36,729 bases of DNA from Bacteroidota bacterium. GTDB taxonomy: Bacteria; Bacteroidota; Bacteroidia; 2-12-FULL-35-15. This document shows, piece after piece, positions 12,522 to 29,585 of the stretch (positions are counted from its first letter, which is position 1; every line of letters begins with the position of its first letter). Location: assembly GCA_021323165.1 (NCBI GenBank), contig JAJTCJ010000044.1:1-36729 (forward strand). Reading direction: 5' to 3'. The notes under the pieces are model-generated. The model did no database searches. It saw only the letters and a program-made list of their open reading frames with translations, and was not told the DNA's origin. Position numbers and translations under genes: made by a program.

Positions 12522-13286
12522 TTATTTACTTAAGAGCTGAATAAAACCTTTATAAAGGTGTTCTTTCCCATCCTGCGCTTTTACAGTAATTATATAATAA
12601 TAGGTTCCATCAACTACAACCACACCGCTTGGTGTTCTTCCATCCCATCCTTCATTAATCTGATTCCAGTCGTATAACTTCAATCCCCAACGGTCAAAGA
12701 TCTCTCCTTTAAGGTTTTCAACTCCCGTTGAATACACTTTGAAAATATCATTGTTATTATCTCCGTTTGGAGTAAACACATTCGGAATAACAATAGTGAA
12801 ATCATCATAAACTACTATTGTTGCTGTGGCAGTATCAGGACATGCATTATTATTCGATGCAATTAAAGTAACATTATATGTTCCCGGTGTAGTATAAATA
12901 TATGACGGATTAGTTGCAGCCACTAAAGCAGACCCATCCCCGAAATTCCAAACATAAGTATTAGAAAGTGAACTTGAGTTTGTAAAATCAACAGGCAATG
13001 GGCTTGTTCCCGACATAGGGTTTGCACTAAAGGAAGCTGCAGGTGCAGGAGCAGCCACTACAAGAACTGAATCAACTGAACTACAACCTGTAGTAGTGTT
13101 TGTTACAGTTACTGTATAAGAACCCGCAGCATCAACGGTAGGTGTAATTGAATTAGTTCCTGCTACAATATTACCATTTATTGTTGTCCAGTTATAAGTA
13201 ATGTTTATTCCTGTTGAAGAAGCTGAACCGTCTAAGATCGCTGCTATAATACCACAACCAATTGGTTGAGGAGGTCCGGCATCTGC
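12522..13286 (-). repeat. C-terminal block shared with the 2537-residue protein (copy 1)
   Basis: Residues 1818-2071 align without gaps, except at the last residue or two, with residues 2285-2537 of the neighbouring giant protein. By eye the first half is about nine-tenths identical; the CHU_C half is less so. Confidence 0.85.
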
Positions 13287-16200
13287 GGTAGGTAAAGAGT
13301 TAATAGAAATGATCACTGGAGTTGCAGGGCTTGTACAACCTCCAACTGTTTCTGTTACATAGAAAGTATCTGTTACCGTATTAGTTGGTGTATAAGTGGC
13401 ATTGCTTGAAAGCAGAAGAGTTAAGGCTGCATCATCATACCAGTTAAAAGTTCCACCAGTTCCTGAAGCTGTTACCGAAGAGATAACCGCACCCTGACAA
13501 TAAGCTGCACCTGAGGCTGTTGGAGCGGCAGGAGTGCTAGGTGTCGTTAACACGAATGGGCCTGCATTAGTTGAAGTACAACCTGCTAAACTCACAACGA
13601 TATTACTGTAAGTACCTGAAGACAGACCTGTTATAACAATATTACCTGAAGCATCTGTTGTCATTAAGGTAGGTCCGACAACTGTTACACCATCTAAATA
13701 ACCTAAGTTATAACTTGTGGATGCTGATAACCCTGACAGTGTTAATGTTCCATCTAAACCTCCGCAAGTAGTAGGATTTGAAGGCGTTATAGTGAACACT
13801 GGAGCCGATGGATCAGTTAAAATATATGGGCCCGCATCTGTTCCATTGCATCCTACCAGATTTACAATAAGATTGCTGTAAATACCCTGAGACAAACCTG
13901 AGATAACAATATTACCTGTTGCGTCCGATGTCATATTAACAGGACCTGTTACAGTAGATCCGTTAGTATATGTAACGCTGTAACTAGTAGTAGCGATTAA
14001 ACCGGATAAAGTTATTGAACCATCTGTACCGCTACATGTTGTAGGGTTTGAGGATGTAACTGTATATGTTGGGACACTAGGGTCACTTAAAGTAAAAGGA
14101 CCGGTAACTGTTGTGTTGCAGGAACCTGTAGCGACAATAACGTTATTATAAGAGCCCTGGGATAAGCCACTAATAGTAATATTTCCAGAACCGTCAGATG
14201 TCATTGAAACAGGGCCAACAGTTGTTCCGTTTGAATAAGTCACATCGTAAGATGTGTTAGCAACCAACCCTGAGAGTGTTAATGATCCGTCAGTTCCACC
14301 GCATGTAGTCGGGTCACTTGAAGTAACAGAAAATGAAGGTGCGGCAGGACTGGTTAAAACAAAAGGCCCGGCATTGGTTGAAGAACATCCTAATAAACTC
14401 ACTATCATATCTATATAATTGCCTGCAGACAACCCATTAATTATAATATTTCCAGAGGCATCGCTGACCATTGCGTTTGGACCAAAAGTAGGCCCGTTGG
14501 TATAAGTAATATCATAGCTTGTATTAGCTGTTAATCCGGACAATGTTATTGAGCCATTGGCTCCACCGCATGTTGTTGGATTTGAAGCAGTAACGGTGAA
14601 AGTTGGCGAACCTGGATCACTTAAAACAAACGTTCCCGGGTCTGTTGTAGTACAACCGTTCAAATTAACAGTGATGACAGAATAAGAACCCGCTAACACG
14701 TTGATTATAATATTACCTGAGCCATCTGAATTCATACTAGTAGGACCAGCAACACCAGATGCATCTGTGTATGTCACATCATAAGCAGTAGAGGTATTTA
14801 AACCTGACAAAGTAAGAGTACCTGTTCCACCACATGTTGTGGGATTAGCAGCTGTTACAGTAAATACAGGAGGTGCAGGATCATTTAATGTATAAGTAGC
14901 TACATCTGTGTAATTACAACCTGTTAAAGAAGTAGTAATATTACTATAAGTTCCCTGGGTAAGTGAACTAATTACTATAGTTCCTGTTCCTGTTGAAGTC
15001 ATTGAAACCGGCCCCACGACACCCGATGCGTTTGTATATGTAATATCGTAAGCTGTAGCTGGATTTAAACCTGATAATGTAATTGTTCCTTGTGATCCTC
15101 CACATGTAGTCGGATTAGTTGATGTTACAGTAAATGCCGGTATTGGATCAACAGTTACTACAATAGTAAATGTATTTCCGGTACATGAGCCAGCTACAGG
15201 TGTTACTGTGTAAGTAGCTGTTGCGGCAACAGTAGATCCGTTAGTTAGTGTTTGACTTATTGCTGCTTGTCCTGTGGCCTGAGCACTTCCACCTGTAATA
15301 GCGCCTACTGGTGAACTTACCGGGGTATTCCAGGTGAACACAGTACCTGCTGGAACTCCCGTAGGTGCTATATTAAATGCAGTACCACTGCAAATCACTG
15401 AGGTTTGATTTACTATTATTGGTTTCGGATTTACAGTTACGACATAATTCACCGGAGTTCCCTGACAAAAAGTAGGAGCTGGTCCTACTGGAGTAATCAC
15501 GTATGTCACACTTCCTGAATTAACAGTTGTGTTTGATAATACATCCCCGATAGAAGTAATTCCGGTCGCGGATGGAGTAAGACCTGTAACTGTTCCGCTG
15601 GTTACAGATGCAGTATAATTAAAAGTTGAGCTTGCAACACTTGATGTTAAGTTAATACTTGTATTATCACCTGAACAAATTGCTTTTGATAATGGATTAT
15701 TTGTAACAGCCGGTATTGGGTTGATCGTTACAGAGGCGCTTCCGCTGGAAGTACCGGTACAATTCACATCGTTTACAGCAACAACAGTGTATGTTCCTGA
15801 AGTTGTGGCTGCAATAATATAAGGAGAAGAATTAATTCCTGTAACGGCAGGCTGATTAATACCTCCTATAGCATAAGTTAAGTTCCACGGACCTGTTCCA
15901 GTTAAGGCAACTGATACGTTCACTGCATTTCCGGCACATGCATTTCCACCACCGGTAACAGTTGCAGTTGGAAGAGTTAAGATTGTTACAGAAGCAGCTC
16001 CACTTCCTGACCCTGTACATGAAGCATCTGCAATGGACACGATCGTGTAAGTTCCTGCTGACGGATTTGTTATCGAATATGTAGAAGAAGGGAAACCAGT
16101 GGAGACTGTAACAGCCGGTTGTGTTACACCATTAATAGCATATGTTAATGTATATGGAGAAACCGTACCATTAGCTAAAGTAAACACGACATTAGGAGCA

Positions 16201-18737
16201 GGCGAACCTGAGCACGCTGATCCTCCACCTGAAACCACACCTGTTACACCGCAGGCGCAGTTTTTCACTCCGTCAACATCTACATTAAGAGAAGCGCAAT
16301 TCAATGCATCATTCACATTAAAAGAATAACTTGTTCCTGAAGGAATAGACGAACTTGTAAAAGTGTTTCCAGATAAAGTACCGGTTCCGCCAGTAACAGT
16401 ATAAGGAGTAGTTCCTCCGCTGATATCAAAAGTTACAACATAGTTAACGCCCGTACATGTTGTAACAATATTCGATACAACAATTGCAGGATTAATAGTA
16501 ATAATTGCAGATCCTGTTCCAGTATTAGAACAAACAGCATCCGTAACGTTAGATACTGCATACGTTCCTCCAACTCCTGTTGTAAAAGTATAAGGAGATG
16601 TTAAAATATTATTAACGGTTACGGGTGAGCCCCCGTTAGTTGTATAAGTTATTGACCATGGAGCTGTACCGGTTAAAGCTACAGAAACAATGGCAGTAGA
16701 GCCAGGACATATTTTTTGAGTTCCACTTATAGTACCAGTTGGAAGAGGATTTACAGTTACAGTATAAGTATGAACAGTTGAGCAACTACCAGAAGTAGCT
16801 GTTACTGTTACCGTTCCGCTAATTGCAGAAGATGAAGCATTTGTTGCTACAAACGATGGCACATTTCCGTTTCCGCTTGCTGCCAATCCTATTGCTGTAT
16901 TAGAGTTGGTCCAGGAAAATGTAGCGCCTGCTGGTACACTTGTGAAACTAGCGCCTGCAACCGTAGTACCTGCACATTGGGTTATATTTGAAGGCACGGT
17001 AAATGCAGGTCCATTTGGAACGTTAATAGTAACTGACCTTTGATATTGACATCCGAATTCATCTGTCGCAGTAAAATCATAAACAAATGATCCTCCTGTT
17101 AAAAATGGACCAAGATTGATGGAGTTAGTTAATCTATTTCCAAGGCAGGTACCTGGGGTAGGACATGCACCAGGTCCAGGATCTGTAACAACTGCGCTTG
17201 AGGTAGTTTGTGAAGGAATTGCAGGACCGGTGCCGGTAGTAGACCAAACTGCGGTGGTCATATCCGGTGTTACAGTTTCTAATCCTGAGTAACATGTAGT
17301 TGGAAAATCTAATGACCAACTAAACAACGTACCATCATCCTGAGCCGCATTATCGGTTACCCTTAAACTCCATGTACCATTTAAATCTGCTCCATTAAAA
17401 CCCGCGAATGAGTTAGTTGAATTATAGGTAATTGGACGGTAATATGTTCCTGCTTCACACGCTCCTGCATATCCTGCACATGGTGATGTAGTTGTAGTTC
17501 CGATGACGGCTCCATAATTGGTCCATGACTGGCCAGTTCCATCTCCAACAACAGTATATGTTGCACCACATCCCGGGACACCATTATCTGCAGCGTTTAC
17601 ACATGACCCGAATTCATAAATGGCTGTAACAAAAGGGGGAGTACCTTGTATTCCGTGTCTGTTGAATAAACGAACTGTTTGACCTGTTGGAGCAAGAAGA
17701 TCAATTGTTAAATCATTCGCATACGAATGCTCGAGATTAAGTATAACCTTGGGATAACAAGCAGGAGTAACGGTAGAGCCCGCTGGAAAAAACCCTGTAT
17801 AATTAATACCGGAGGTATAACTGGCCCCGGTTCCGTCAGGAAGGGCGGTAACAGTTGAAACAGGAATCGGACTTGAGGTGATTGTTTGTGAAGCTGCCAC
17901 ACCTGTGAGGGTGGTAGAACCACCACAAGAAAGATTTATTGGGGAGGCCGTTGTACCGGTAAAGTTCGGTTCGGGCAATATCTTAATCACTCTCGAAACT
18001 CCATTTGTACTTGGACACCCTGAGGGGTCAACATCAGTATTATTATTTCTTACGACTAACTGAGCTGTGTAAACTCCGGTCCCCGGATATGTATGCGTTG
18101 TTGTTGGAGTCGCTGTAGTAGTTGTTGTACCATCACCCCATGTCCACACATAACTTGAAACAGTTCCCTGGCTGCTTGTAGATGGCGATGCATCAAAAGC
18201 CACTGTTAAGGAACCGGGATTCAATGATGTAGGTGGACAAAGATTTAAAGTTGAAGTATTCGTTAATGCTGCAACAGGAGTAACACAGGGTGTAGCACAG
18301 GAAACCGTTGCTACCCATCCTGCTCTCTGCGTGTTATTATCGGACACAAAACGGAATGAGATGCAACCGTCTGGACTAGTTGAAACAATGGTAAAGGCTC
18401 CAAGATTACCGCAGTAGCGAGCATCTTGAGTTCCAGCTGCACCAACAGCATTTGCATTCCACATTTCCAAGTAATCAAAACAAGCTGTAGCTCCGCTTGG
18501 TTCAGTATTGTAGGATGAAAAACTAATCTTTATAACATCTCCGGGTGTAGCCGGACAAAAAGTGATTGTACTATTTTGATTAGATGAATAATTACTTGCC
18601 GAACCTCCATTATCAACAAATGTTCCTGAACATGTACTTATTGTAGCCGTTCCGGTTCCGGCAGGCATAGTATAAGTTTGGGAAAAAACGGTAGCTGTTA
18701 TTAATAAAAAGAGAAACGTAAAAATTTTATTTTTCAT
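12522..18737 (-). CDS. Giant T9SS surface protein with CUB-like, P-domain, PKD repeats and CHU_C tail (2071 residues)
   Basis: Domains by eye: signal peptide (1-20, MKNKIFTFLFLLITATVFSQ); CUB-like domain (about 21-150, CFDYLEMWNA, GCISFRFVSDNN); PKD domain (about 153-255, YVWTWGDGTTTT); proprotein-convertase P-domain (about 280-480, LNLEHSYANDLTIDLLAP, LNGTWSLRVTDNA); PKD/Ig-like modules (about 480-1200); six tandem modules of about 89 residues (1202-1737, each opening with FTVTxxNPTTCGG); an Ig-like module; then a C-terminal block (1818-2071) with a PKD (VWNFGDGS) and the gliding-motility-associated CHU_C domain (VIPNVFTPNGDNNNDIF, DRWGLKLYD, WDGRTPSG, DGTYYYI). The CHU_C tail predicts T9SS export and surface attachment. 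A role in adhesion or gliding is inferred. It follows the 130-residue gene by 52 bp. Confidence 0.92.
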   Translation of the reverse strand: MKNKIFTFLFLLITATVFSQTYTMPAGTGTATISTCSGTFVDNGGSASNYSSNQNSTITFCPATPGDVIKISFSSYNTEPSGATACFDYLEMWNANAVGAAGTQDARYCGNLGAFTIVSTSPDGCISFRFVSDNNTQRAGWVATVSCATPCVTPVAALTNTSTLNLCPPTSLNPGSLTVAFDASPSTSSQGTVSSYVWTWGDGTTTTTATPTTTHTYPGTGVYTAQLVVRNNNTDVDPSGCPSTNGVSRVIKILPEPNFTGTTASPINLSCGGSTTLTGVAASQTITSSPIPVSTVTALPDGTGASYTSGINYTGFFPAGSTVTPACYPKVILNLEHSYANDLTIDLLAPTGQTVRLFNRHGIQGTPPFVTAIYEFGSCVNAADNGVPGCGATYTVVGDGTGQSWTNYGAVIGTTTTSPCAGYAGACEAGTYYRPITYNSTNSFAGFNGADLNGTWSLRVTDNAAQDDGTLFSWSLDFPTTCYSGLETVTPDMTTAVWSTTGTGPAIPSQTTSSAVVTDPGPGACPTPGTCLGNRLTNSINLGPFLTGGSFVYDFTATDEFGCQYQRSVTINVPNGPAFTVPSNITQCAGTTVAGASFTSVPAGATFSWTNSNTAIGLAASGNGNVPSFVATNASSSAISGTVTVTATSGSCSTVHTYTVTVNPLPTGTISGTQKICPGSTAIVSVALTGTAPWSITYTTNGGSPVTVNNILTSPYTFTTGVGGTYAVSNVTDAVCSNTGTGSAIITINPAIVVSNIVTTCTGVNYVVTFDISGGTTPYTVTGGTGTLSGNTFTSSSIPSGTSYSFNVNDALNCASLNVDVDGVKNCACGVTGVVSGGGSACSGSPAPNVVFTLANGTVSPYTLTYAINGVTQPAVTVSTGFPSSTYSITNPSAGTYTIVSIADASCTGSGSGAASVTILTLPTATVTGGGNACAGNAVNVSVALTGTGPWNLTYAIGGINQPAVTGINSSPYIIAATTSGTYTVVAVNDVNCTGTSSGSASVTINPIPAVTNNPLSKAICSGDNTSINLTSSVASSTFNYTASVTSGTVTGLTPSATGITSIGDVLSNTTVNSGSVTYVITPVGPAPTFCQGTPVNYVVTVNPKPIIVNQTSVICSGTAFNIAPTGVPAGTVFTWNTPVSSPVGAITGGSAQATGQAAISQTLTNGSTVAATATYTVTPVAGSCTGNTFTIVVTVDPIPAFTVTSTNPTTCGGSQGTITLSGLNPATAYDITYTNASGVVGPVSMTSTGTGTIVISSLTQGTYSNITTSLTGCNYTDVATYTLNDPAPPVFTVTAANPTTCGGTGTLTLSGLNTSTAYDVTYTDASGVAGPTSMNSDGSGNIIINVLAGSYSVITVNLNGCTTTDPGTFVLSDPGSPTFTVTASNPTTCGGANGSITLSGLTANTSYDITYTNGPTFGPNAMVSDASGNIIINGLSAGNYIDMIVSLLGCSSTNAGPFVLTSPAAPSFSVTSSDPTTCGGTDGSLTLSGLVANTSYDVTYSNGTTVGPVSMTSDGSGNITISGLSQGSYNNVIVATGSCNTTVTGPFTLSDPSVPTYTVTSSNPTTCSGTDGSITLSGLIATTSYSVTYTNGSTVTGPVNMTSDATGNIVISGLSQGIYSNLIVNLVGCNGTDAGPYILTDPSAPVFTITPSNPTTCGGLDGTLTLSGLSASTSYNLGYLDGVTVVGPTLMTTDASGNIVITGLSSGTYSNIVVSLAGCTSTNAGPFVLTTPSTPAAPTASGAAYCQGAVISSVTASGTGGTFNWYDDAALTLLLSSNATYTPTNTVTDTFYVTETVGGCTSPATPVIISINSLPTADAGPPQPIGCGIIAAILDGSASSTGINITYNWTTINGNIVAGTNSITPTVDAAGSYTVTVTNTTTGCSSVDSVLVVAAPAPAASFSANPMSGTSPLPVDFTNSSSLSNTYVWNFGDGSALVAATNPSYIYTTPGTYNVTLIASNNNACPDTATATIVVYDDFTIVIPNVFTPNGDNNNDIFKVYSTGVENLKGEIFDRWGLKLYDWNQINEGWDGRTPSGVVVVDGTYYYIITVKAQDGKEHLYKGFIQLLSK
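13527..15134 (-). repeat. Six tandem modules of about 268 bp (TCGG repeat array)
   Basis: Six protein modules of about 89 residues, each with NPTTCGG (once NPTTCSG) near the start, a TLSGL or ITLSGL strand, a tyrosine-rich T(S/A)YDxTYTN strand, a GNIxIxGL turn and a conserved Cys near the end. The modules look like Ig-fold adhesin stalk units. They differ enough in DNA that recombination would be imperfect. Confidence 0.85.
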
Positions 18738-18789
18738 TTTGTGAGTGGTTTGAGAGAAGTGTATTCTTTGTAATCTTTGTGATTTTATT

Positions 18790-19182
18790 TTATCGGATAT
18801 CTTGCAGTTGATTTTTTAATTTTTGGTCATAGTAATAGATATACCACAACTCGTCAATCGTAAAAGTTGTTTTAACTTTATTAGAAAGTCCATTATAATA
18901 TGCCTGAGCAATCGTGTAATATTTATAACTTTCGGGAGCATTTACTTTCATGTCAGCAAGGTCTTTACTAATTTCTTTTAAAAAATCTCCCTGAATATAA
19001 TTTAAGGGTTCGCTTGAAGGAATCTCCACTAACTTATATGAATAATCAATACTTACATAACTTTTAATATTTATAACCGCACCAGGAGGCAGATTTACTG
19101 TTTTTTCCTGAGAGAAAACTGATGTGCTGCAAGAAAATGTCAGCATTAAAAAAAGCGAAAATGGCAAGTTAAATTTTAACAT
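18790..19182 (-). CDS. Small exported protein, 130 residues, upstream of the giant gene
   Basis: The product has a signal peptide (MLKFNLPFSLFLMLTFSCSTSVFSQ). A Cys sits inside the hydrophobic core, but the VFSQ end favours ordinary signal-peptidase cleavage over a lipobox. The mature 105 residues are rich in tyrosine (IDYSYKL, ESYKYYTIAQAYYNGL, ELWYIYYYDQ) and mostly helical. I do not recognise the family. It precedes the 2071-residue gene by 52 bp, with no terminator between, so the two are probably co-transcribed. Its role may be linked to that surface protein (inference). A long leader with hairpins and a poly-G tract lies upstream. Confidence 0.75.
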   Translation of the reverse strand: MLKFNLPFSLFLMLTFSCSTSVFSQEKTVNLPPGAVINIKSYVSIDYSYKLVEIPSSEPLNYIQGDFLKEISKDLADMKVNAPESYKYYTIAQAYYNGLSNKVKTTFTIDELWYIYYYDQKLKNQLQDIR

Positions 19183-19436: not shown

Positions 19437-20198
19437 CTATTGTAACACCTGAATAAATCCAGTATATGTGTATTCTTTTTTATCATATCCTTTTAACTGA
19501 AGGATGTAATAGTAAGTTCCGTCAGTAACCATAGAACCGCTTTGGGTGTGCCCGTCCCAGGCTTGCGATACTCCCTTTAGTTCATATATCTTTAATCCCC
19601 AGCGGTCATAAATCTCTCCTGATAAACTTTCAACACCAGTTGAATTAATCTTAAATTGATCATTGTTACCATCGTTATTTGGAGTAAATATGTTTGGTAT
19701 TAACACCGAAATATCATCAAACACAATAATTGTGGCTGTTGCTGTATTCGGACAAGCATTATTGTTGGATGCTATTAAGGTAACCGTATATGTCCCCGGA
19801 GCATTATAAGTATAAGAAGGATTAGTTGATGAAACTGAAGGAGATCCATCACCAAAATCCCATACATAGCTATTAGATAAGGTACTGGTATTTGTAAAAT
19901 CCACAGGTAATGGATGAGTACCTGACATCGGATTTGCTGTAAAGGATGCTGATGGAGCAGGAGCTGCTATCACAAGAACGGAGTCTACTGAACTGCAACC
20001 TGTAGCTGTATTTGTTACTGTTACAGTATAAGAACCTGCTGCATCAACCGTTGGTGTTATTGAACCAACTCCTGATACAATGTTACCATTTGTGGTTGTC
20101 CAGTTGTAAGTGATAGTTGTACCTGTTGAAGATGCTGAACCATCCAGTATCGCTGCTATAATTCCACAACCGATTGGCTGAGCCGGTCCTGCATCAGC
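19437..20198 (-). repeat. C-terminal block shared with the 2071-residue protein (copy 2)
   Basis: Residues 2285-2537 match the end of the other giant protein, starting ADAGPxQPIGCGIIAAILDG. Short stretches are also nearly identical in DNA. Confidence 0.85.
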
Positions 20199-23100
20199 TA
20201 TTGGTGATGAAGTGTCCGGTGTTACAACTACCGTTGAAGTTGCCGTACAGCCACTAAAGCCATCGGTTACAGTCACAGTATAAGTTCCTGCTGTATTAAT
20301 AATAGGTGTTGCTGTTGATCCTCCAGATACGATTCCCGGACCTGACCAGGTGAATGATGCTCCTGCCGTTGTGGAAGAACCATTTAAGGTAACTGAAGTT
20401 GTTGAACAAGTAATCGTTTGACCTGAACCTGCGTTTGCATCCGGTGGAGTTGTGATGTTCTCAACAACCACCGTATCCGTTGCTATGCAACTGTTTGCAG
20501 TATCTATTACTGTTAAAGTATAAGTACCTGCTGCATTTACAGTAGGAGTTGGCGTTGAGCCTCCCGATACAATACCCGGACCTGACCAGCTGAATTGAGC
20601 ATTGACAGTTGTTGAACTTCCGTTTAATGATCCTGTTAAATTGATACAGGTTAAAGTATCTGCTGCGCCAGCATCTATATTTGGTGCATTAATATTGGAG
20701 ATTACTGATACTGTGTCGGTATTGCTGCAGTTTTCTGAAGTAACGGTCAATGTATATAAACCCGTTGCATTAACTGTTGCACTTGACGTATTACCACCTG
20801 AAACTATCCCAGGACCTGACCAGCTAAATGAAGGGCTTAACGCTGCGGATGTACCATTAAGAACAGTGGTTGTTACTCCACAGGCAAGGCTCTGCATTAC
20901 GCCTGCATCAACATTTGGAGGAAGGGAAATAGTTAATAATAATGTATCATTTACTACTCCGCATGAATTTGCAGGATCATTGCTCATAATGTAAAGCTGA
21001 ACGCTTCCTGCAAGGCTATCTGCTGATGAAGGCACATAAGCTGTGGCAATGAATATTCCAGTGCCAGCTGTTCCCCATGTAAATGAAGAAGCGCTACCGC
21101 CCACAGAACCTGTTGTAGGATAAACAGCTCCAGCACAGATAGCTGTATCGTTTCCTGCAAACGCTGTTGCAGGTTGATCGATCACAATTACTGCTGAGTC
21201 GATCGCTGAAGCACATCCTCCCGAAGCTGCAATGTCATTATATACTGTATATGTTCCCGGAGTACTTCCAGTAATATTTACTGCTCCCGTACCTGTTGTT
21301 AAAGACAAGCCTATTGCTGAACTGAAAACTCCTCCGCTGGAAGTACCACTAAATACAGGTGATGCCGTTCCGCCTGCACTCTGGCAGTATGGACCTGAGT
21401 AACTAAATGAAGCTGATGGGGAATTTGTAATTGTTATCGTTACACTGCTTGACATCGGACAAACGCCATTAGTTGTATACGTTACAGTGTAAGTTGCAAG
21501 TGTACTCGTAGATAAAGTTATTTCACCTGTTGCAGCATCCAGAGAAAGACCACTAGTGGAAGAGAATGCACCTCCTGTTGCACCTGTAATAACCGGAATG
21601 GGATTCGATCCTGTTGAACAGAAAGTTGTTCCACCATAGCTAAAAGTAGCATCATCAGAAGGGGTGATCGTAAGTATCAGATCATCAACCTCAGCGGAAC
21701 AAGCTCCGGAAGGGTCATTTGTAAGGAATGTTAAAGTAACACTTCCGGCAGAAATATCGGCAGGTGAAGGCGTATAGACAGCACCTGGTAAAGATGTATT
21801 ATCAAAAGTACCTGTACCTGATGTTGTCCATGTTGCAGATGAAGCGCTTCCTCCGAATGATCCTAATAATGTATAATCAGTGCCGCTGCATATAGATGCA
21901 TCAGAGCCTGCACTTACAGTTGCAGATGGGTCAATTGTTACACTTGTAGTGAAACTTGCAGCCGAACATCCACTGCTTGCAGGAATATCATTTGTCACAC
22001 TATATGTCCCCGGAGTACTTGCAAGAAGATCGATCTCACCGGTAGCGGTACTCACAAAAATCAATCCTGAAGGCGTGGCACTGAATGTTCCTGCACTGGA
22101 TCCTGAATTGAATGATGGAAAAGGATTTGAGGCGGACATACAATAAGGACCTGCATAAGAGAAATCAGCAGAAGGCGCAGTTGTAATAGTTACATCAAAA
22201 GTACTGGAATTCGGGCAAGCTCCGTTTGTATTATATGTTATTGTATATGTACCAAGTGTACTGGCATCAAGATCAATTAAACCTGTTGCTGTATTTAAAA
22301 TTATCAAACCTATTGTTGAACTGAATGTTCCCCCATTAAGTCCAGAAATTGTTGCTGCAGGATCAGTACCAGTTGCACAATAAGTTGATGAATAAGAAAA
22401 AGATGCATCATCAAGCGGTGTGATATTAATTGTTACCAGGTCGGATGCTGCAGGGCAAGGTCCTACAGGATCATTCGATGTAAGAGTTAATGTAACTAAA
22501 CCTGCAGAAATCTCAGAAGCTGAAGGTGTATAGGTTGCATTCAACGTAGTATTATTCGGATTAAATGTTCCTGCGCCACCCGTCCAGGTTCCGTTGAAAG
22601 CACTTCCACCTAAACTTCCTGCAAGAGTAACTGTTGCTGAAGATGCGCAAACTGTCTGATCAGTTCCTGCATCCGCAGTAGCAATTGGATCAATGGAAAT
22701 GATCATCTGATCTGTCGCTGCAGGACAAGAGCCTGCAGGATCATCTGTTGTTAAAGTCAAAGTAACACCGCCTGCTAAAATTTCAGCAGCTGAAGGTGTG
22801 TAAACAGCATTGAGAGAAGAAGCTGAAGGATTAAAAGAACCCGTTCCACCCGACCAGCTTCCGCTTGTTGCTGAACCACCAACATTTCCGTTCAATGTAA
22901 CATCCGGTGAGGAAGTACAAACAACCTGGTCAGCATTTGCAGTTGCAGTTGCAGGGTTATTTATAAATATTGTAATCTGGTCATTAACTGCAGAGCATGC
23001 TCCGGCAGGATCATTTGTTGTAAGGGTCAAGGTAACTGATCCTGCAGTAATCTCTGTTGCAGAAGGAGTATAAATTGCATTCAGAGTGGTATTGTTTGGA

Positions 23101-26100
23101 TTGAAGGATCCAGTGCCACCCGACCATGTAGCTGAAGAAGCTGTTCCGCCAATTACACCAGCAAGTGTAACGGACGCTGCAGAAGAACAAACAGTCTGAT
23201 CTGTGCCGGCATTAACTGTTGTCGGCTGATCAATTGTAATTGTCATCTGATCAGTAGCGGCCGAACATGGACCAGTAGGATCATTAGTAGTTAAAGTAAG
23301 AGTAACGGTTCCTGCAGTGATCTCCGCAGCCGAAGGAGTATAGATCGCTGTAAGAGTTGTATTATTAGGATTGAATGCACCGGTTCCTCCTGACCAGGAA
23401 CCAGTTGTTGCACTTCCTCCGACAGAACCTGCTAAAGTTACAGCTGCTGAAGTTGCACATGAGGATTGATCAACATTGGCATTAGCAATTGCAATCGGGT
23501 TTATGGTTATGATCATTTGATCAGAAACAGCTCCGCAAGGGCCGGAAGGATCATTTGTTGTTAATGTTAATGTAACTGTTCCTGCTGTGATCTCTGCAGC
23601 TGAAGGTGTATAGATTGCTGTCAGAGTTGTATTATCAGGATTGAATGTTCCTGTTCCACCAGACCATGTTGCAGAACTTGCGCTTCCTCCTATTGATCCT
23701 GCTAAAGTTACTGCAGGTGCACTCGCGCATGAAATCTGATCAACATTTGCGCTAACAGTAGCAGGCTGGTTAATTGTAATTATCATCTGATCCATTACGG
23801 CAGGACAAGGTCCTGCCGGATCATTGGTCGTTAATGTTAGTGATACAGTCCCTGCTGTGATCTCTGTGGCAGAAGGTGTATAAACTGCGTTAAGAGTAGT
23901 GTTGTTCGGATTGAATGATCCTGTACCTCCTGACCATGTTCCAGTTGATGCACTGCCCCCCACTGAACCTGCAAGAGTCACTGCTGGAGCAGTTGCACAT
24001 ACATTTTGATCACTATTCGCATTGGAGATTGCTGAAGGATCGATGGTTACAGTGTTGGTCGCCAAAGCTGCTGCACAACCTCCCGCTGCAGGAATAGAAT
24101 TAGTTACAGTATATGTTCCGGGAGTAGTTAAAGCAAGGTTAATCTGTCCTGTTGAAGTACTTACGAAAGTTAATCCCGCAGGTAAGGCACTGAACGTTCC
24201 TGCACTTGCACCGGCACCAAATGTTGGGCTTGGATTAACACCGCTCTGACAATAAGGTCCGGCATAACTGAATGCCGCAGATGGCGCAGTTGTTATAGTC
24301 ACATTGAATGTGGCTGTATTCGGACAAGTTCCATTCGTAGTGTATGTGATTACATAAGTGCCGAGTGAACTTAGCAACACGTCTATTTGTCCTGTAGCTG
24401 TACTCACGAAAACCAATCCGGCAGTAGAACTGAATGTACCTCCGGCTAATCCTGTAACCGTAGGGGTTGGATTTGCACCTGTCTGACAATATGTTGATGA
24501 TGAATAGCTAAAAGATGCATTATCCATCGGATTTACAGTGACACTTACAGTTTGTGGTGCACCAACACAACTATTAGCAGTAGAAGTAGGAGTTACAGTA
24601 TATGTAACAGTTTGAATTGATGAAGAAGTACTTGTTATTGTATTATTTAATGTAGAAGTAGTTTGCAAGGTTGTACTCTCCCCGGTCGTATTCACATTAT
24701 TTGAGCCTATCCAGGTAAAGCTCGATGCAACATCTGCTGTTAGAGGAATATTCACTGTTCCGCCACTGCATATTGAGGCTGTATTAGCACTGGTCATAAC
24801 AGGAGCCGGATTAACAGTGACTGTTACTGTTTGCGGTGTACCCGGGCAGCTACCAACAGTTGATGTTGGTGTAACTGTAAAAATAACATTCTGTGAAGAC
24901 GAAGAGGTATTTATAATTGTATTACTAAGTGTTGCTGTCGTTTGAGCACTTGTACTTTCTCCCGTTGTATTCACATTATCTGCCGCGATCCATGAAAAAG
25001 TTGAAGCGACATTGCTTGTTAACGGAATACTCACTGTTGTACCGCTGCAGATAGTGGCAGCGTTAGCGCTTGTCATTGTTGGAACCGGATTCACAGTTAC
25101 AGTAACTGTCTGAGTTGTTCCTAAACAAGTACCTGCGGCAGATGTAGGAGTAACTGTGTACGCTACTGTCTGCACTGCAGATGTAGTATTGTTTAACGTA
25201 TTATTTAATGTACTTGTATTCTGCAGCGTTGTGCTTTCTCCTGTAACGTTCGTGTTAGTTGCAGCTATCCATGTATAAGTAGAAGCAACATTACTTGTCA
25301 GGGGAATATTAACAGCAGCACCACTACAGATGGTTGCAGTGGATGCACTTGTCATTACAGGTGCAGGATTCACCGTAACGGTCACAGTTTGGGTAGTACC
25401 AACACAACTTCCGGATGTTGATGTTGGAGTTACTGTATATGTTACAGTTTCTGCAACAGCAGAAGTACTGGTAATAGTATTGCTTAATGTAGATGTATTT
25501 TGAAGAGTAGTACTCTCTCCTGAAGTGTTTGGATTATTAGATGCGATCCAGGTGTACGTTGCAGCGATATTACTTGTTAATGTAATGCTTACTGCTGAGC
25601 CGCTGCAGATAGTTGCAGTGTTCGCGCTTGTCATTGTCGGAGCAGGATTAACGGTAACAGTAACAGTTTGTGGAGTACCAGGACAACTTCCTGCTGTTGA
25701 TGTAGGAGTTACAGTATAGGTTACGGTTTGTACCACAGCTGTAGTGTTAACAAGTGTATTACTTAAGGTTGAAGAAGTTTGTGAAGTAGTGCTTTCACCT
25801 GTCACATTCGTATTACTCGCTGCTATCCATGTATATGAAGAAGCAACATTACTTGTCAATGAAATACTTACAGTCCCTCCGCTGCAAACAGTTGCTGTGT
25901 TTGCACTCGTCATCACCGGTATAGGATTCACAGTTACATTCACCGTTTGAGTAGTTCCTACGCAACTACCTGTTGTGGATGTTGGAGTAATCGTGTAGGT
26001 CACCGTTTGAACAGATGAAGATGTATTTGTAATAGTATTATTTATTGTTGAAGTGTTTTGGGTTGTTGTGCTTTCTCCCGTTGTATTCGCATTATTTGCC

Positions 26101-27050
26101 GCTATCCAGGTATAATTTGCCGGGACATTACTGGTCAAAGGGATATTCACTGCATTGCCGCTGCAGATGGTTGCGGTAGTCGGGCTTGTCATTAAAGGTC
26201 GTGGATTAACAGTTATAGTAACTGTTATAGGAGCTCCGACACAACCTGATGATGTTGGTGTAACAGTATACGTAACAGTTCCAGCGGTTGTACCTGTTGC
26301 AGTTAGCGTCTGCGCTATAGTGGATCCGCTTCCGGAGGATGCGCCAGTAGTACCGCTTTGGCTTGCCGTCCAGGAATAAGTAGTTCCAGATACACTGCTG
26401 CTGAGTGCAATTGAAGTTGCAGTACCAGAACATATTGTTTGTGAAGAAGGAGTAGCCGTTGCTACCGGTGTGGTACATGGACACGTAACTGAGATCGTGA
26501 CGGGATTACAGGTTGCCCCCCCGTATCCATCCACCATCATAAATGCACATTGTCCTGCCGGTATTGTTACCGTAAATGAAAAACCATCAGCTGCACCGCC
26601 TACATTACTATCAAAATAGCTATATTCGGAATTACCACAATCCATCGTTGTTGCATCAAGGCTGGCTCCTACCCATACAGCACCCTGAATATTACATGTA
26701 CTTCCAGATCCTGTTTCATCCGCAACCATGGTTACTGTTACTGCACTTCCTGTAGAATTACAGTATTGATACCATTCCGAATTTTCCACAGAGAAAGGAA
26801 CATCCTGCAAACCATCTCCATCCAGATCCGCGCCAGCGTAGCAGCAAGGATTACATCCGCCATCACCAGAAGTGGGATTCGATCCTGCAAAGCCACTTGC
26901 ATCCAAATTAATTGTTACAGGACTTCCGCATGACAAACTTGTTGCAGATGGAGTTCCACCGCCACCGCCACCGCCACCGGCTGTAAGTTTAGTGTTGATC
27001 GCGACCAGAAAGAAAAGAAACAAAATAGTTAGCTTAATAAAACTTTTCAT
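19437..27050 (-). CDS. Giant T9SS repeat-rich surface protein with CHU_C tail (2537 residues)
   Basis: By eye: signal peptide (1-24, ending NTKLTA); eight Gly; a Cys-rich N-terminal domain (about 33-193) with a calcium-type loop DLDGDGLQD; one divergent PKD-like module; six 93-residue PKD-like modules (286-841, MTSxxTATICSG...TWIAxxNxNxTGEST); paired FSYxGPYC modules (about 842-1009, and two more pairs later); six modules of about 89 residues (1010-1545, WSGGTGxFNPNNTTL...YTPSAxEI); two more distant copies; three Ig-like modules (SFSWSGPGIVSGG); and the C-terminal block 2285-2537 with PKD and CHU_C (LIPNIFTPNNDGNNDQF, DRWGLKIYE, DGTYYYI). T9SS export and surface attachment are inferred from the tail; adhesion is the likely role. 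It starts 25 bp after the membrane-synthase gene and is probably co-transcribed with it. Confidence 0.92.
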   Translation of the reverse strand: MKSFIKLTILFLFFLVAINTKLTAGGGGGGGGTPSATSLSCGSPVTINLDASGFAGSNPTSGDGGCNPCCYAGADLDGDGLQDVPFSVENSEWYQYCNSTGSAVTVTMVADETGSGSTCNIQGAVWVGASLDATTMDCGNSEYSYFDSNVGGAADGFSFTVTIPAGQCAFMMVDGYGGATCNPVTISVTCPCTTPVATATPSSQTICSGTATSIALSSSVSGTTYSWTASQSGTTGASSGSGSTIAQTLTATGTTAGTVTYTVTPTSSGCVGAPITVTITVNPRPLMTSPTTATICSGNAVNIPLTSNVPANYTWIAANNANTTGESTTTQNTSTINNTITNTSSSVQTVTYTITPTSTTGSCVGTTQTVNVTVNPIPVMTSANTATVCSGGTVSISLTSNVASSYTWIAASNTNVTGESTTSQTSSTLSNTLVNTTAVVQTVTYTVTPTSTAGSCPGTPQTVTVTVNPAPTMTSANTATICSGSAVSITLTSNIAATYTWIASNNPNTSGESTTLQNTSTLSNTITSTSAVAETVTYTVTPTSTSGSCVGTTQTVTVTVNPAPVMTSASTATICSGAAVNIPLTSNVASTYTWIAATNTNVTGESTTLQNTSTLNNTLNNTTSAVQTVAYTVTPTSAAGTCLGTTQTVTVTVNPVPTMTSANAATICSGTTVSIPLTSNVASTFSWIAADNVNTTGESTSAQTTATLSNTIINTSSSSQNVIFTVTPTSTVGSCPGTPQTVTVTVNPAPVMTSANTASICSGGTVNIPLTADVASSFTWIGSNNVNTTGESTTLQTTSTLNNTITSTSSSIQTVTYTVTPTSTANSCVGAPQTVSVTVNPMDNASFSYSSSTYCQTGANPTPTVTGLAGGTFSSTAGLVFVSTATGQIDVLLSSLGTYVITYTTNGTCPNTATFNVTITTAPSAAFSYAGPYCQSGVNPSPTFGAGASAGTFSALPAGLTFVSTSTGQINLALTTPGTYTVTNSIPAAGGCAAALATNTVTIDPSAISNANSDQNVCATAPAVTLAGSVGGSASTGTWSGGTGSFNPNNTTLNAVYTPSATEITAGTVSLTLTTNDPAGPCPAVMDQMIITINQPATVSANVDQISCASAPAVTLAGSIGGSASSATWSGGTGTFNPDNTTLTAIYTPSAAEITAGTVTLTLTTNDPSGPCGAVSDQMIITINPIAIANANVDQSSCATSAAVTLAGSVGGSATTGSWSGGTGAFNPNNTTLTAIYTPSAAEITAGTVTLTLTTNDPTGPCSAATDQMTITIDQPTTVNAGTDQTVCSSAASVTLAGVIGGTASSATWSGGTGSFNPNNTTLNAIYTPSATEITAGSVTLTLTTNDPAGACSAVNDQITIFINNPATATANADQVVCTSSPDVTLNGNVGGSATSGSWSGGTGSFNPSASSLNAVYTPSAAEILAGGVTLTLTTDDPAGSCPAATDQMIISIDPIATADAGTDQTVCASSATVTLAGSLGGSAFNGTWTGGAGTFNPNNTTLNATYTPSASEISAGLVTLTLTSNDPVGPCPAASDLVTINITPLDDASFSYSSTYCATGTDPAATISGLNGGTFSSTIGLIILNTATGLIDLDASTLGTYTITYNTNGACPNSSTFDVTITTAPSADFSYAGPYCMSASNPFPSFNSGSSAGTFSATPSGLIFVSTATGEIDLLASTPGTYSVTNDIPASSGCSAASFTTSVTIDPSATVSAGSDASICSGTDYTLLGSFGGSASSATWTTSGTGTFDNTSLPGAVYTPSPADISAGSVTLTFLTNDPSGACSAEVDDLILTITPSDDATFSYGGTTFCSTGSNPIPVITGATGGAFSSTSGLSLDAATGEITLSTSTLATYTVTYTTNGVCPMSSSVTITITNSPSASFSYSGPYCQSAGGTASPVFSGTSSGGVFSSAIGLSLTTGTGAVNITGSTPGTYTVYNDIAASGGCASAIDSAVIVIDQPATAFAGNDTAICAGAVYPTTGSVGGSASSFTWGTAGTGIFIATAYVPSSADSLAGSVQLYIMSNDPANSCGVVNDTLLLTISLPPNVDAGVMQSLACGVTTTVLNGTSAALSPSFSWSGPGIVSGGNTSSATVNATGLYTLTVTSENCSNTDTVSVISNINAPNIDAGAADTLTCINLTGSLNGSSTTVNAQFSWSGPGIVSGGSTPTPTVNAAGTYTLTVIDTANSCIATDTVVVENITTPPDANAGSGQTITCSTTSVTLNGSSTTAGASFTWSGPGIVSGGSTATPIINTAGTYTVTVTDGFSGCTATSTVVVTPDTSSPIADAGPAQPIGCGIIAAILDGSASSTGTTITYNWTTTNGNIVSGVGSITPTVDAAGSYTVTVTNTATGCSSVDSVLVIAAPAPSASFTANPMSGTHPLPVDFTNTSTLSNSYVWDFGDGSPSVSSTNPSYTYNAPGTYTVTLIASNNNACPNTATATIIVFDDISVLIPNIFTPNNDGNNDQFKINSTGVESLSGEIYDRWGLKIYELKGVSQAWDGHTQSGSMVTDGTYYYILQLKGYDKKEYTYTGFIQVLQ
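22416..24023 (-). repeat. Six tandem modules of about 268 bp (WSGG repeat array)
   Basis: Six modules each with a DQxxC opening, VTLAGSxGGSA, TWSGGTGxFNP, YTPSAxEI, LTLTTNDPxGPC and a closing ITI strand. Two more divergent copies occur separately further toward the C-terminus. Confidence 0.88.
24528..26195 (-). repeat. Six tandem modules of about 279 bp (TICSG repeat array)
   Basis: Six modules of about 93 residues, each opening MTS(A/P)xTATICSG and containing TWIAxxNxNxTGEST and TYTVTPTS...VTVTVNP. A seventh, divergent copy precedes them. They resemble PKD-like domains. Confidence 0.9.
26956..26979. repeat. (CCACCG)4 microsatellite encoding poly-glycine
   Basis: Four perfect 6-bp units encode eight glycines right after the signal peptide of the 2537-residue protein. 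Loss or gain of a unit keeps the reading frame and changes the linker by two residues. Confidence 0.9.
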
Positions 27051-27075
27051 GAGGAGAGTTCGTTTTTAATAGCGT

Positions 27076-28635
27076 TTAATTGGTCAATGGTATATTATAT
27101 TCTTCTTTAAACTTTAGAGTAAAATTTTTATAATAGCCTTCCCTCCATTTATCTGCCGCGAACCTGTTCAACTGTTCCATTACGGGTTTATCATCGGTAA
27201 TAATTACCGCGTCCGACATATTTAACTCAAATGTAGGTAAAAAATGTTTATCGATAATATATTCACTTCCGTCTTCAGTTTTTACATTTATAGAGGCTTT
27301 CCACTGAGGTTCTTTTAAATAAGAAATATATAAAACATTGCGCTCTGACTCCTCTGTCTCATTAGTAGCAAAAAGATTTACTTTAAATCCTGCAGCTAAG
27401 AGTGTTTTATATAATGATCTTCCTGCTCTTCCTTCTTTACCTGATAAGAATCCGTTAAAATTTATGACTAACATTCCGCCTTCTGCTAATCGTTCTTTTA
27501 TGTCTTCAAAAGATTCTTTGCTTAAGCCATGAGAAGGAGCAATTTCGCCATTAAAAATATCGAGAACAATGAAATCATATTTCTTCTTACTCTTTTTAAT
27601 GAAACGTCTTGCATCATCCTGAAAGATCTTTATTCCGAACCCTCTTAAATTAAAATACTTTTTACTGATTTCTACTATCCGGCCGTCAAGTTCGACTGCA
27701 TCAACATTGTGCTTACAATATTCTTTAAGCTGCTTGGCAACTACTCCACCACCCAATCCCAAAACGAGTGATGAAGATCCTTGCGGATAAATACTGCCTA
27801 ATGAAGTAATATAATTCGGATAACCCCAGATAGAATAATTGGATGTAGTATTGAACCATGTTTGTCCCATACGATTAATAAAAAGCATTCTTTCATTATG
27901 ATCTTGTTTGTTAATATCTGCAACGATCAACTGACCATTGATACCTTCAGAGTATTCCAGAATTTTTACTGAAGGTGAATCAGACAAAGCAGGCTTTGCA
28001 TTAATTAATCCGATACTTAAGATAATCAATACCACTAATGGAAAATAGAATTGCTTTCTTTTTTGCCTGAAATAAAAAACAAGAGGCAAAGCTGCGGTGA
28101 AGACTATTGCCCATAAAACAGTATGAGATAAACCCAAAGAAGGAATGAAATAAAATCCAGCAAGAAAGGAAAAAAGAATTCCTCCGCAGGTTGAAATACT
28201 ATAGATCTTTCCAACAATATCTGATTTTCGGTCTTTTTGAAGATCCATACAAGCAATGAGCACCGGTGTGGTAGATCCGAACAATAATAATGGAATAAAA
28301 AGTAAAACAATAATGATCAGCCAGGAAAAATATTGATTGTTTGAGCCTATATTGGAATTGTTCTGCAGATAAATAAGGAACCAACCTGTTAATACTACAA
28401 GTGAGTTAAGCGCAAAGACAGACATCGAATATTCTGCCACAGCTCCTTTACCTGCTCTTCTTCCACCTAAAAAATATCCGATAGCCAGAGCAGCAATCGA
28501 AATACAAATAAGGATCGCCCAGATATTAACTGAACTCCCTAAAACAGGGGCAACGATCAAAGGAGATGAAACTTCAAGAAGCATCACCAATCCTCCTTCA
28601 AGGAAAGCGGTTAAAAGGATTTCATTTCTTTTCAT
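27076..28635 (-). CDS. Membrane protein fused to spermidine-synthase-like domain (519 residues)
   Basis: The N-terminal half (about 1-215) has roughly six hydrophobic helices, with EGGLVMLLEVSSPLIVAPVLGSS and AALAIGYFLGGR typical of the MFS-like half of fused MFS/spermidine-synthase proteins. The C-terminal half (about 225-500) has a Rossmann SAM-type site: LVLGLGGGVVAKQL, then VDAVELDGRIVEIS, FQDDARRFI and YDFIVLDIFNGEIAPS. In true aminopropyltransferases the last motif is D-x-x-D-P; here the second Asp is Asn (DIFNGE). Real spermidine synthase activity is therefore doubtful, and the substrate is unknown. The start overlaps the previous gene by 14 bases, and the giant gene follows after 25 bp. 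Confidence 0.85.
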   Translation of the reverse strand: MKRNEILLTAFLEGGLVMLLEVSSPLIVAPVLGSSVNIWAILICISIAALAIGYFLGGRRAGKGAVAEYSMSVFALNSLVVLTGWFLIYLQNNSNIGSNNQYFSWLIIIVLLFIPLLLFGSTTPVLIACMDLQKDRKSDIVGKIYSISTCGGILFSFLAGFYFIPSLGLSHTVLWAIVFTAALPLVFYFRQKRKQFYFPLVVLIILSIGLINAKPALSDSPSVKILEYSEGINGQLIVADINKQDHNERMLFINRMGQTWFNTTSNYSIWGYPNYITSLGSIYPQGSSSLVLGLGGGVVAKQLKEYCKHNVDAVELDGRIVEISKKYFNLRGFGIKIFQDDARRFIKKSKKKYDFIVLDIFNGEIAPSHGLSKESFEDIKERLAEGGMLVINFNGFLSGKEGRAGRSLYKTLLAAGFKVNLFATNETEESERNVLYISYLKEPQWKASINVKTEDGSEYIIDKHFLPTFELNMSDAVIITDDKPVMEQLNRFAADKWREGYYKNFTLKFKEEYNIPLTN

Positions 28636-29233
28636 TCACCGAAGCCAGGTATATTCTGAGTATTATTCCAATTAGTAAAAGAAGGATTCCAAGACAAAAC
28701 GAGGTTAATTTAACACCAAGTACAGGTATAAAAAAATATACAGTTGTGATGATTAGGAAGATCCCGCCAATAGTTCCGGTGCCATATATGATTCCTGTGG
28801 ATCTTCCAATATGGTCATAATAAATATTCAGAATTTTAACAATCAAAGGCGAGATTGTCCCCATAAAAAAAACAGGAAAAAAAAGTATTATCCCTCCTCC
28901 GAATAATGATGCCCATTTGATATCTAAATTCAATAATAGAGGCAAGCAAAAAGAAGCTATTTGCGTAGAAAAGAAGACAAGTATCCCGGAAATTATGTAG
29001 GAAGATGCAAGAAAATTAAATGATCTTTTTTCAGATAACACTCCTCCTACCCAATAACCGATAGCAAGTGCTGCAAGTGTAGTAGTAAGAATAGAAGTCC
29101 ATACGTATATGGAAGAACCAAGATAAGGTGTATATATTTTTATACTCAGAACTTCAAAGGCCATTAAACAGCCTCCTTCAATAAAAGAAGAAATAATAAG
29201 AAGGTATTTCAGAAATGATCTGTTTTCCTGCAT
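28622..29233 (-). CDS. Six-helix membrane protein, MFS-like half (203 residues)
   Basis: This protein resembles the membrane half of its downstream neighbour: IEGGCLMAFEVLSIKIYTPYLGSS and TTTLAALAIGYWVGGVLSEK match EGGLVMLLEVSSPLIVAPVLGSS and AALAIGYFLGGR in position and spacing. About six transmembrane segments fill the whole length and no catalytic domain follows. It overlaps the next gene by 14 bases, implying translational coupling and possibly a two-subunit complex. It could be the relic of a longer 12-helix synthase-fusion protein that split. Transport substrate unknown. Confidence 0.82.
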   Translation of the reverse strand: MQENRSFLKYLLIISSFIEGGCLMAFEVLSIKIYTPYLGSSIYVWTSILTTTLAALAIGYWVGGVLSEKRSFNFLASSYIISGILVFFSTQIASFCLPLLLNLDIKWASLFGGGIILFFPVFFMGTISPLIVKILNIYYDHIGRSTGIIYGTGTIGGIFLIITTVYFFIPVLGVKLTSFCLGILLLLIGIILRIYLASVNEKK

Positions 29234-29279
29234 AAACAGGTAATCTCGATTAGTTGCTAAATATTAATAAAAACATTGA

Positions 29280-29585
29280 TTATTTCTCAACTGCAAGTAT
29301 CTCGGTGGTCTTTACTTCTGAGGCGGCCACATAAACTGTTGTCATATCGCTTTTAACACCCATATTCTTCACATGATCAATAGCTTCTTCTTTTGTTTTA
29401 AAAAGCGGATATATTACATTATCAATTTTGATCACTTTAGGAAAAGCCTCTTTCTCTTTCAATTCAACTTTTACATAACGAATCTCTACGCCACGATCAA
29501 CAAGATTTACTGCAGATAAAGGTTTGATTGCAAGAAACAAAACAAGTGTAAAGCACAGTATCAGATTTTTTTTCAGATTCGTCAT
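29280..29585 (-). CDS. Small exported protein, 101 residues
   Basis: There is a signal peptide (about 1-25, KKNLILCFTLVLFLAIKPLSA) and a short mature region with alternating strands and helices (GVEIRYVKVELKEKE, KVIKIDNVIYPLF, EEAIDHVKNMG). I do not recognise the family. It lies 46 bp upstream of the 203-residue membrane gene with no terminator between, so it may head the operon that ends with the 2537-residue surface protein. The gap upstream (29586-29793) shows only AT-rich DNA and the tatA terminator. Confidence 0.7.
   Translation of the reverse strand: MTNLKKNLILCFTLVLFLAIKPLSAVNLVDRGVEIRYVKVELKEKEAFPKVIKIDNVIYPLFKTKEEAIDHVKNMGVKSDMTTVYVAASEVKTTEILAVEK

Follow-up and report, generated by a model that had tools for sequence, protein, structure and literature searches.

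We analysed a window of 36,729 nucleotides, contig C49 (JAJTCJ010000044.1) of an uncultured Bacteroidia genome (4.0 Mb, 171 contigs, 89.6% complete), in which four genes, P0001 to P0004, encode a small exported protein, two membrane proteins and a giant cargo of the type IX secretion system (T9SS). Residue conservation and gene neighbourhoods support the conclusion that P0003 represents a family of membrane-bound enzymes of S-adenosylmethionine (SAM), apparently not aminopropyltransferases, that are repeatedly encoded beside exported surface proteins. The reading we favour, tentatively, is that P0002 and P0003 form a periplasm-facing split transporter-methyltransferase that modifies the exported cargo encoded beside it.

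Conserved residues and membrane architecture of the enzyme

P0003 and P0002 both match the NCBIfam model NF037959, 'fused MFS/spermidine synthase' (MFS, major facilitator superfamily), with 145.6 and 71 bits, respectively, against a cut-off of 40. The model was matched by 32/32 aligned relatives at E 0.001. P0003 additionally matches PF01564 (44.9 bits). The first-pass annotation, made from the sequence alone, had called the enzyme degenerate because DIFNGE (residues 359-364) stands in place of the catalytic D-x-x-D-P motif. This is not borne out, since DIFNGE is the family's conserved signature. Among 130 distinct full-length relatives, the first Asp of the loop (D359) and P367 are each kept in 130/130, the position of the second Asp is variable, and the Glu two residues on (E364) is kept in 126/130. 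A decayed, non-functional enzyme was therefore rejected. Position 296, identified by alignment to solved synthases as the decarboxylated-SAM residue of spermidine synthases, is Gly, Ala, Ser or Thr in 130/130 and Asp or Glu in 0/130 of the same relatives. The spermidine synthase equivalog models score P0003 far under their cut-offs (TIGR00417, 36.4 versus 249.55 bits; PRK00811, 47.3 versus 260 bits; PRK03612, 66.3 versus 472 bits). The conserved residues support the earlier suggestion that putrescine is not what this enzyme handles.

An AlphaFold2 model of P0003 (mean predicted local distance difference test score, pLDDT, 88.9; predicted template modelling score, pTM, 0.84) contains seven helices followed by a spermidine-synthase fold. 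It aligns to 3gjy with Z 24.2 over 251 residues and to many spermidine synthases with Z ~20, and its enzyme domain aligns to METTL13-C with a structural Z of 16.6 and a profile E of 1.6e-9. Judged by its sequence, the P0003 domain probably binds SAM. Residue conservation and the characterised relatives of the fold suggest that it is not an aminopropyltransferase and is most likely a methyltransferase.

P0002 is ~30% identical to the first 200 residues of P0003, making the two homologous halves. Of 14 complete halves encoded on their own in the collected loci, 12 have an enzyme gene no more than 25 bases away, or 11/13 given that L056 and L146 are one place; in L056 and L057 the half and the enzyme lie on opposite strands. 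A P0002-like half is fused to the enzyme in five proteins (733-757 aa, one of them cut by a contig end), and from these natural fusions we infer that P0002 and P0003 bind to each other. The model of one fusion, L072_1 (pLDDT 85.2, pTM 0.83), shows thirteen membrane helices (six plus seven) followed by the enzyme, with a low-confidence linker at residues 201-229. Its first twelve membrane helices align to SLC37A4 with Z 35.2 over 371 residues (root-mean-square deviation 3.7), and its TM-score to NorA is 0.64 by target length. Because this fusion models as a full MFS bundle, one further helix and an enzyme, the likeliest description of the window pair is a split MFS bundle of six helices each, with the enzyme domain hung on an extra seventh helix of P0003. 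The first-pass term, a split membrane module, is better replaced by a split MFS bundle with a SAM-enzyme domain.

The charge distribution of the loops was examined in the 32 relatives. The mean number of Lys plus Arg (K+R) was 1.47 at the N-terminus, 2.84 in loop 2, 1.75 in loop 4 and 2.66 in loop 6, compared to 0.00, 0.28 and 0.56 in loops 1, 3 and 5 on the alternate side, and the seventh helix was hydrophobic in 31/32. By the positive-inside rule, this bias together with the helix count suggests that the enzyme domain lies on the periplasmic side.

Genomic neighbourhoods of the enzyme family

P0003-like genes (E <= 1e-20) were found in 74/395 genomes of a class sample and 2/395 of a phylum sample, with the source genome included in both; at most three candidates per genome were scored, and further copies may be missed. 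The survey covered the window and 158 stretches around such genes (38 + 80 + 40, some sharing a genome). The controls were 40 stretches of 20 kb, each free of an enzyme gene, from 28 enzyme-carrying genomes. In Bacteroidia, giant secreted proteins lie close to the enzyme family at a higher rate than expected from gene density. After clustering at 70% identity, a secreted protein of at least 1000 aa lay within three genes in 26/87 enzyme clusters (26.6 by fractional count), compared to 10.6% expected from the control density of 12/646 genes (p 7e-7). A T9SS C-terminal domain, detected with models built from seeds in the loci rather than from Pfam, lay within three genes in 36/87 clusters (36.1 fractional), compared to 20% expected (p 6e-6). 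Clustering at 45% identity gave fractional counts of 12.5 for secreted giants and 12.9 for the T9SS domain, of 27. Genes of <90 aa were excluded from these counts, and the gene-density expectation replaced, as the more cautious choice, an earlier control in which none of 66 inner control genes had a secreted giant within three genes.

The composition of the window recurs in L069, a groundwater metagenome-assembled genome in which one 8.6-kb contig carries the membrane pair, a P0001 homologue and a giant whose N-terminal domain is homologous. The first-pass annotation had named as evidence against it a membrane pair never found near giants in relatives. The enzyme family does occur near giants, which answers this objection only in part: the two closest orthologues have none adjacent, and the search of the genus found no orthologue. 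In our collection the order of the source genome is a single genus of 36 genomes, its own included, and no orthologue of the P0002/P0003 pair was found in the other 35 (best P0003 identity 37% full-length, 38% partial); two contig-end fragments match P0003 over 60-75 residues only. Conservation of the window gene set across the genus was thus not found. The genus relatives of P0003 (33-38%) sit in a different conserved cluster, in which a CHU_C giant lies two to four genes off in 11/21 stretches and which is led by a sigma factor in L035, the one genome scanned.

A second cargo domain, 'CNL', was found in 11/395 class genomes, 10 of which have a P0003-like gene. An enzyme gene lies within ~6 kb in 7/13 CNL loci, 4 of which were search seeds, and in 3/9 loci outside the seed set; CNL recurs beside the enzyme in different families. 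In three genomes (L171, L234 and L235), sigma/anti-sigma-like gene pairs, as read by eye, lie between or beside the enzyme and CNL cargo genes, which suggests joint regulation of the two. The source genome itself has two further copies of the enzyme. Its copy of the genus-wide enzyme, G000:C68 (L048 6814-8299), is broken up into two reading frames (402 + 97 aa) in this assembly. The third, G000:C21 (L049), comprises a membrane half, a protein of 378 aa resembling thioredoxin-type lipoproteins, and the enzyme, and is divergent from a CNL-type secreted protein.

Other arrangements were also seen. An exported protein of 403-431 aa directly precedes the enzyme in 18 of 80 loci, mostly from Saprospiraceae (e.g. 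L110 1694-2929), and the one example scanned has I9 and S8 peptidase domains. In one lineage (L148, L150 and L151) the membrane half and the enzyme come after a gene resembling ZIP-type zinc transporters, as compared with Pfam for L148. At L062 10648-11498, next to a weaker relative of the enzyme, inspection by eye picked out two proteins, one an exosortase-like membrane protein, the other small and ending in a C-terminal tail, VPIDGG, that looks like an anchor.

The giant P0004, its small partner and the layout of the locus

P0004 was correctly recognised in the first-pass annotation as a T9SS protein, matching PF13585 with 75.6 bits (cut-off 27) and TIGR04131 with 48.2 bits (cut-off 35). It has a signal peptide predicted by a simple rule (hydrophobic core and cleavage-like site), and it shares this peptide, PKD-like repeats and the CHU_C domain with other T9SS type B cargo. 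It differs from the usual cargo of this type by a run of glycines at the predicted mature N-terminus and by a Cys-rich domain spanning ~190 residues past the signal peptide, for which no Pfam family was found at E 0.01. Of 10 matches to an Ala-Gly4 DNA pattern in the source genome, 6 are in frame within called open reading frames (ORFs), and P0004 is the sole one at an exported N-terminus.

The N-terminal domain of P0004 occurs in 7/395 class genomes, the source genome included, and in L069 (48% identity). A general linkage of this domain to the enzyme was rejected: the two are adjacent in 1/7 genomes (the window) and ~8 kb apart in one other (G451), and no enzyme was found within the 13-20 kb examined around the giants of G016, G539, G586, G694 and G695. 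Among the seven, a glycine run is confined to the giants of the two genomes that have an enzyme nearby (2/2 versus 0/5, p 0.048), one of these being the index case, the window. The closest contrast is the G016 giant, which has the P0004-type domain and the P0001-type small partner but no glycine run, and no enzyme in the 17 kb examined.

We compared the predicted mature N-termini of large or T9SS cargoes across the survey, excluding cargoes cut by contig ends and counting identical N-terminal stretches once. A Gly-Gly start was found in 9/110 cargoes within three genes of the enzyme compared to 0/165 farther away (p 2e-4), and in 7/69 within two genes compared to 2/206 beyond (p 0.001). Leaving out L181, a doubtful, lipoprotein-like case among the 9, and collapsing four related cases gave 5/106 versus 0/165 (p 0.009). 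For large cargoes within two genes the predicted first residue was Gln in 18/39 and Gly in 8/39, compared to Gln in 56/84 and Gly in 2/84 farther away. An N-terminal Cys was rejected as a mark: it does not discriminate, because the CNL domain begins with Cys whether or not an enzyme is near.

The small exported protein P0001 appears to belong with the giant, because its homologues precede giants with a homologous N-terminal domain in three other genomes (L227_5, 38%, E 4e-17; L230_6; L069_3); the window has the membrane pair placed between P0001 and the giant. The homologue lies 18 bases upstream of the giant in G016 (38%) and ~420 bases upstream in G451, and in L069 another T9SS gene intervenes. 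In G539 the equivalent position holds a small exported gene with no clear similarity to P0001. This conserved gene order suggests that P0001 is a cargo-specific exported helper. The other enzyme loci were searched for small proteins like P0001 with five seeds, one of which (L229_5) had been chosen by position rather than similarity; beyond the seeds, scores were only at the level of chance.

The first-pass layout of the locus, checked by ORF calls and translations, is accurate in most respects. The four genes run in the order P0001-P0002-P0003-P0004 on the minus strand, the two membrane genes share 14 bases, and P0004 starts 25 bases past the stop of P0003. L067 and L068, the two nearest homologous pairs, have an identical 14-base overlap. 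P0001 begins 208 bases past tatA and ends 46 bases before P0002, and the gene spacing is consistent with co-transcription of P0001 to P0004. The claim that the only terminator lies past the giant is weak: a terminator-like site is present there, but the scan also found one after tatA, one within P0003 and several within P0004, and the total of 12 is not clearly above chance (8.1 +/- 2.6 in shuffled sequences). Features of the locus are listed in Table 1. By-eye inspection of the translated neighbours revealed no sprF/porP-like gene. Downstream, a small exported protein, P0005 (130 aa), directly precedes a second CHU_C giant, P0006 (2071 aa), with P-domain and weak CUB matches (window 12522-19182, minus strand). 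This is the same small-plus-giant arrangement, without the enzyme.

Table 1. Positions of the features discussed, in window coordinates
Feature	Position	Strand	Basis
P0001, small exported protein, 101 aa, putative partner of the giant	29280..29585	-	Signal-like N-terminus; homologues before giants
P0002, six-helix membrane half, MFS-like, no enzyme domain, 203 aa	28622..29233	-	NF037959, 71 bits (cut-off 40)
Overlap of P0002 and P0003, 14 bases	28622..28635	-	ORF coordinates; same in L067 and L068
P0003, seven-helix membrane domain and spermidine-synthase-like SAM-enzyme domain, 519 aa	27076..28635	-	NF037959, PF01564, model
Seven helices of P0003, residues 3-211	28003..28635	-	AlphaFold2 model; charge bias
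GLGGG of P0003, residues 293-297, putative SAM site without the acidic residue of GxG(D/E)G	27745..27759	-	Alignment
D359-I-F-N-G-E364-x-x-P367 of P0003, family form of the catalytic loop	27535..27561	-	Conservation
P0004, giant T9SS type B cargo with PKD-like repeats, 2537 aa	19437..27050	-	PKD_5, 397 bits; CHU_C
Eight glycines of P0004 right after the predicted signal peptide, residues 25-32	26955..26978	-	Sequence
Cys-rich N-terminal domain of P0004, residues 25-215	26406..26978	-	48% identical in L069_5; no Pfam match
CHU_C T9SS sorting domain of P0004	19446..19703	-	PF13585, 75.6 bits
Terminator-like hairpin past P0004	19229..19243	-	Scan; class not clearly above chance
Terminator-like site after tatA	29795-29772	-	Scan

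Proposed function, alternatives and known designs

The closest characterised design to P0003, by analogy, is NHMT (AN4663) of Aspergillus nidulans, described as a ~215-residue seven-helix domain joined to a spermidine-synthase-like domain in the endoplasmic reticulum membrane (Batth et al. 2023, PMC10349129). NHMT methylates the N-terminal His of secreted lytic polysaccharide monooxygenases (LPMOs) and is inactive without its membrane part (PMC10349129). It is missing the D/E of GxG(D/E)G, which was taken there to exclude a spermidine synthase, and BLAST matches to its seven-helix domain were reported in filamentous fungi and one unclassified fungus (PMC10349129). As far as the published description goes, P0003 resembles NHMT in its seven helices and in a spermidine-synthase-like domain without the D/E. 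NHMT lies in a membrane of the secretory route and acts on a substrate with a signal peptide; the parallel for P0003 would be its neighbouring exported cargo. NHMT differs in being fungal, in acting on the N-terminal His of LPMOs and in that no separate six-helix half appears in its description. METTL13-C methylates N-terminal glycine, the residue that it strongly prefers there (PMC6109062; PDB 5wcj). It shares the spermidine-synthase-like fold with the P0003 domain and differs, according to its published description, in being a recombinant soluble domain that is eEF1A-specific and has no membrane domain. Where NF037959 describes a fused protein, P0002 and P0003 each exceed its cut-off as separate genes, with the first half standing beside cargo genes.

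PilD, the prepilin peptidase/N-methyltransferase, is a bacterial precedent for N-terminal methylation of exported proteins by an enzyme in the membrane; it differs in its unrelated fold, its cytoplasmic active site and its pilin substrate. We found no literature linking spermidine synthase with type IX secretion, nor any on a fused MFS/spermidine synthase, a periplasmic methyltransferase or the present system, no tested function for the NF037959 family name, and no follow-up to the original NHMT paper.

The recurrence of a membrane SAM-enzyme beside exported proteins, together with the modification of secreted N-termini by its closest tested analogue, leads us to propose periplasm-facing modification of cargo, a proposal we hold to be possible and put forward with caution. 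P0002 and P0003 would assemble into an MFS-type bundle that carries the spermidine-synthase-like domain via the seventh helix. The SAM-enzyme domain, likely a methyltransferase, would face the periplasm and act on exported cargo encoded alongside, here P0004, once the signal peptide has been cleaved off and no later than during transit through the T9SS. P0001 would serve as an exported helper specific to the giant. The likeliest modified site may be the N-terminal amino group of the cargo, favoured because P0004 and several other enzyme-linked cargoes start with Gly-Gly. More speculatively, the MFS bundle may carry SAM outward or S-adenosylhomocysteine (SAH) back. That all of these details hold together, with a split MFS supplying SAM/SAH exchange to its own periplasmic methyltransferase, capping of the N-termini of giant T9SS proteins, and a small helper dedicated to each giant, seems to us quite improbable.

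Several points weigh against cargo modification. The side assigned to the enzyme is not settled, because K+R of loop 1 becomes 0.84 instead of 0.00 if the loop is taken from residue 23, and because the seventh helix is short (15-18 residues); should this helix fail to span the membrane, the enzyme would be cytoplasmic. The MFS comparison was made with the model of the fusion L072_1, not with the window pair. A periplasmic supply of SAM is not known to exist, and no published data were found on the activity of NF037959-type enzymes. Neither L067 nor L068, the closest orthologues (53-54%), has a giant right beside it. Secretion and signal peptides were called by crude hydropathy rules, and the neighbourhood statistics ignore phylogeny. 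Both the window and L069, a genome found via its enzyme, are part of the Gly-Gly counts, and at a distance of one gene these counts are 2/37 versus 7/238 (p 0.35), no longer a significant contrast. The majority of enzyme-linked cargoes start with other residues, and A8, another cargo domain family (18/287 genomes), has enzyme-linked members without Gly-Gly. N-terminal glycine is therefore not a general substrate, and Gly-Gly was rejected as a universal substrate mark.

Alternatively, the enzyme may be a general envelope enzyme whose target is a lipid, a glycan or another component of the surface, its proximity to T9SS genes reflecting genes that are common and co-regulated. The abundance of T9SS cargo, with 64 CHU_C matches in the source genome, fits this explanation, as do the position of part of the family beside the ~410-aa exported protein (18/80 loci) or in the sigma-factor-led genus cluster, and the location of L067 and L068 away from giants. 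The enrichment of cargo over the control density argues against it, as do the recurrence of CNL beside the enzyme in different families (7/13 loci; 3/9 non-seed) and the enrichment of Gly-Gly cargo near the enzyme at two and three genes. We consider this explanation somewhat unlikely.

A cytoplasmic enzyme that makes a small methylated or polyamine-like molecule, exported by the MFS bundle to the envelope for or by the surface layer, we regard as unlikely. SAM is made in the cytoplasm, the joined halves adopt an MFS fold in the fusion model, and the seventh helix of P0003 is short. In addition, the source genome, at 89.6% completeness, has three membrane forms only and no soluble spermidine synthase over the Pfam cut-off. 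However, the charge bias and the seven helices place the domain outside, the family is without the acidic residue for decarboxylated SAM, and no biosynthetic partner gene stood out as recurring in the neighbourhood lists, in which no systematic search was made. A true membrane-anchored spermidine synthase with irrelevant neighbours is very improbable: the NF037959/PF01564 annotation and the fold are compatible with it, the carboxynorspermidine decarboxylase model matches the source genome only below its cut-off, and the want of any other spermidine synthase over the cut-off leaves a polyamine role thinkable, which also counts against cargo modification, but no D/E occurs at the decarboxylated-SAM site in 130/130 relatives, the second Asp of D-x-x-D-P is not conserved, and the equivalog scores are far below cut-off.

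In the part of the family surveyed, proteins named 'fused MFS/spermidine synthase' are without the classical spermidine synthase residues. If cargo modification by a periplasm-facing methyltransferase is correct, Bacteroidota would have a post-export modification of adhesins for which no published description was found, and the fungal NHMT would have bacterial counterparts. How SAM reaches an extracytoplasmic enzyme would then become testable in a simple gene set, in which the cargo genes adjoining the enzyme provide ready candidate substrates.

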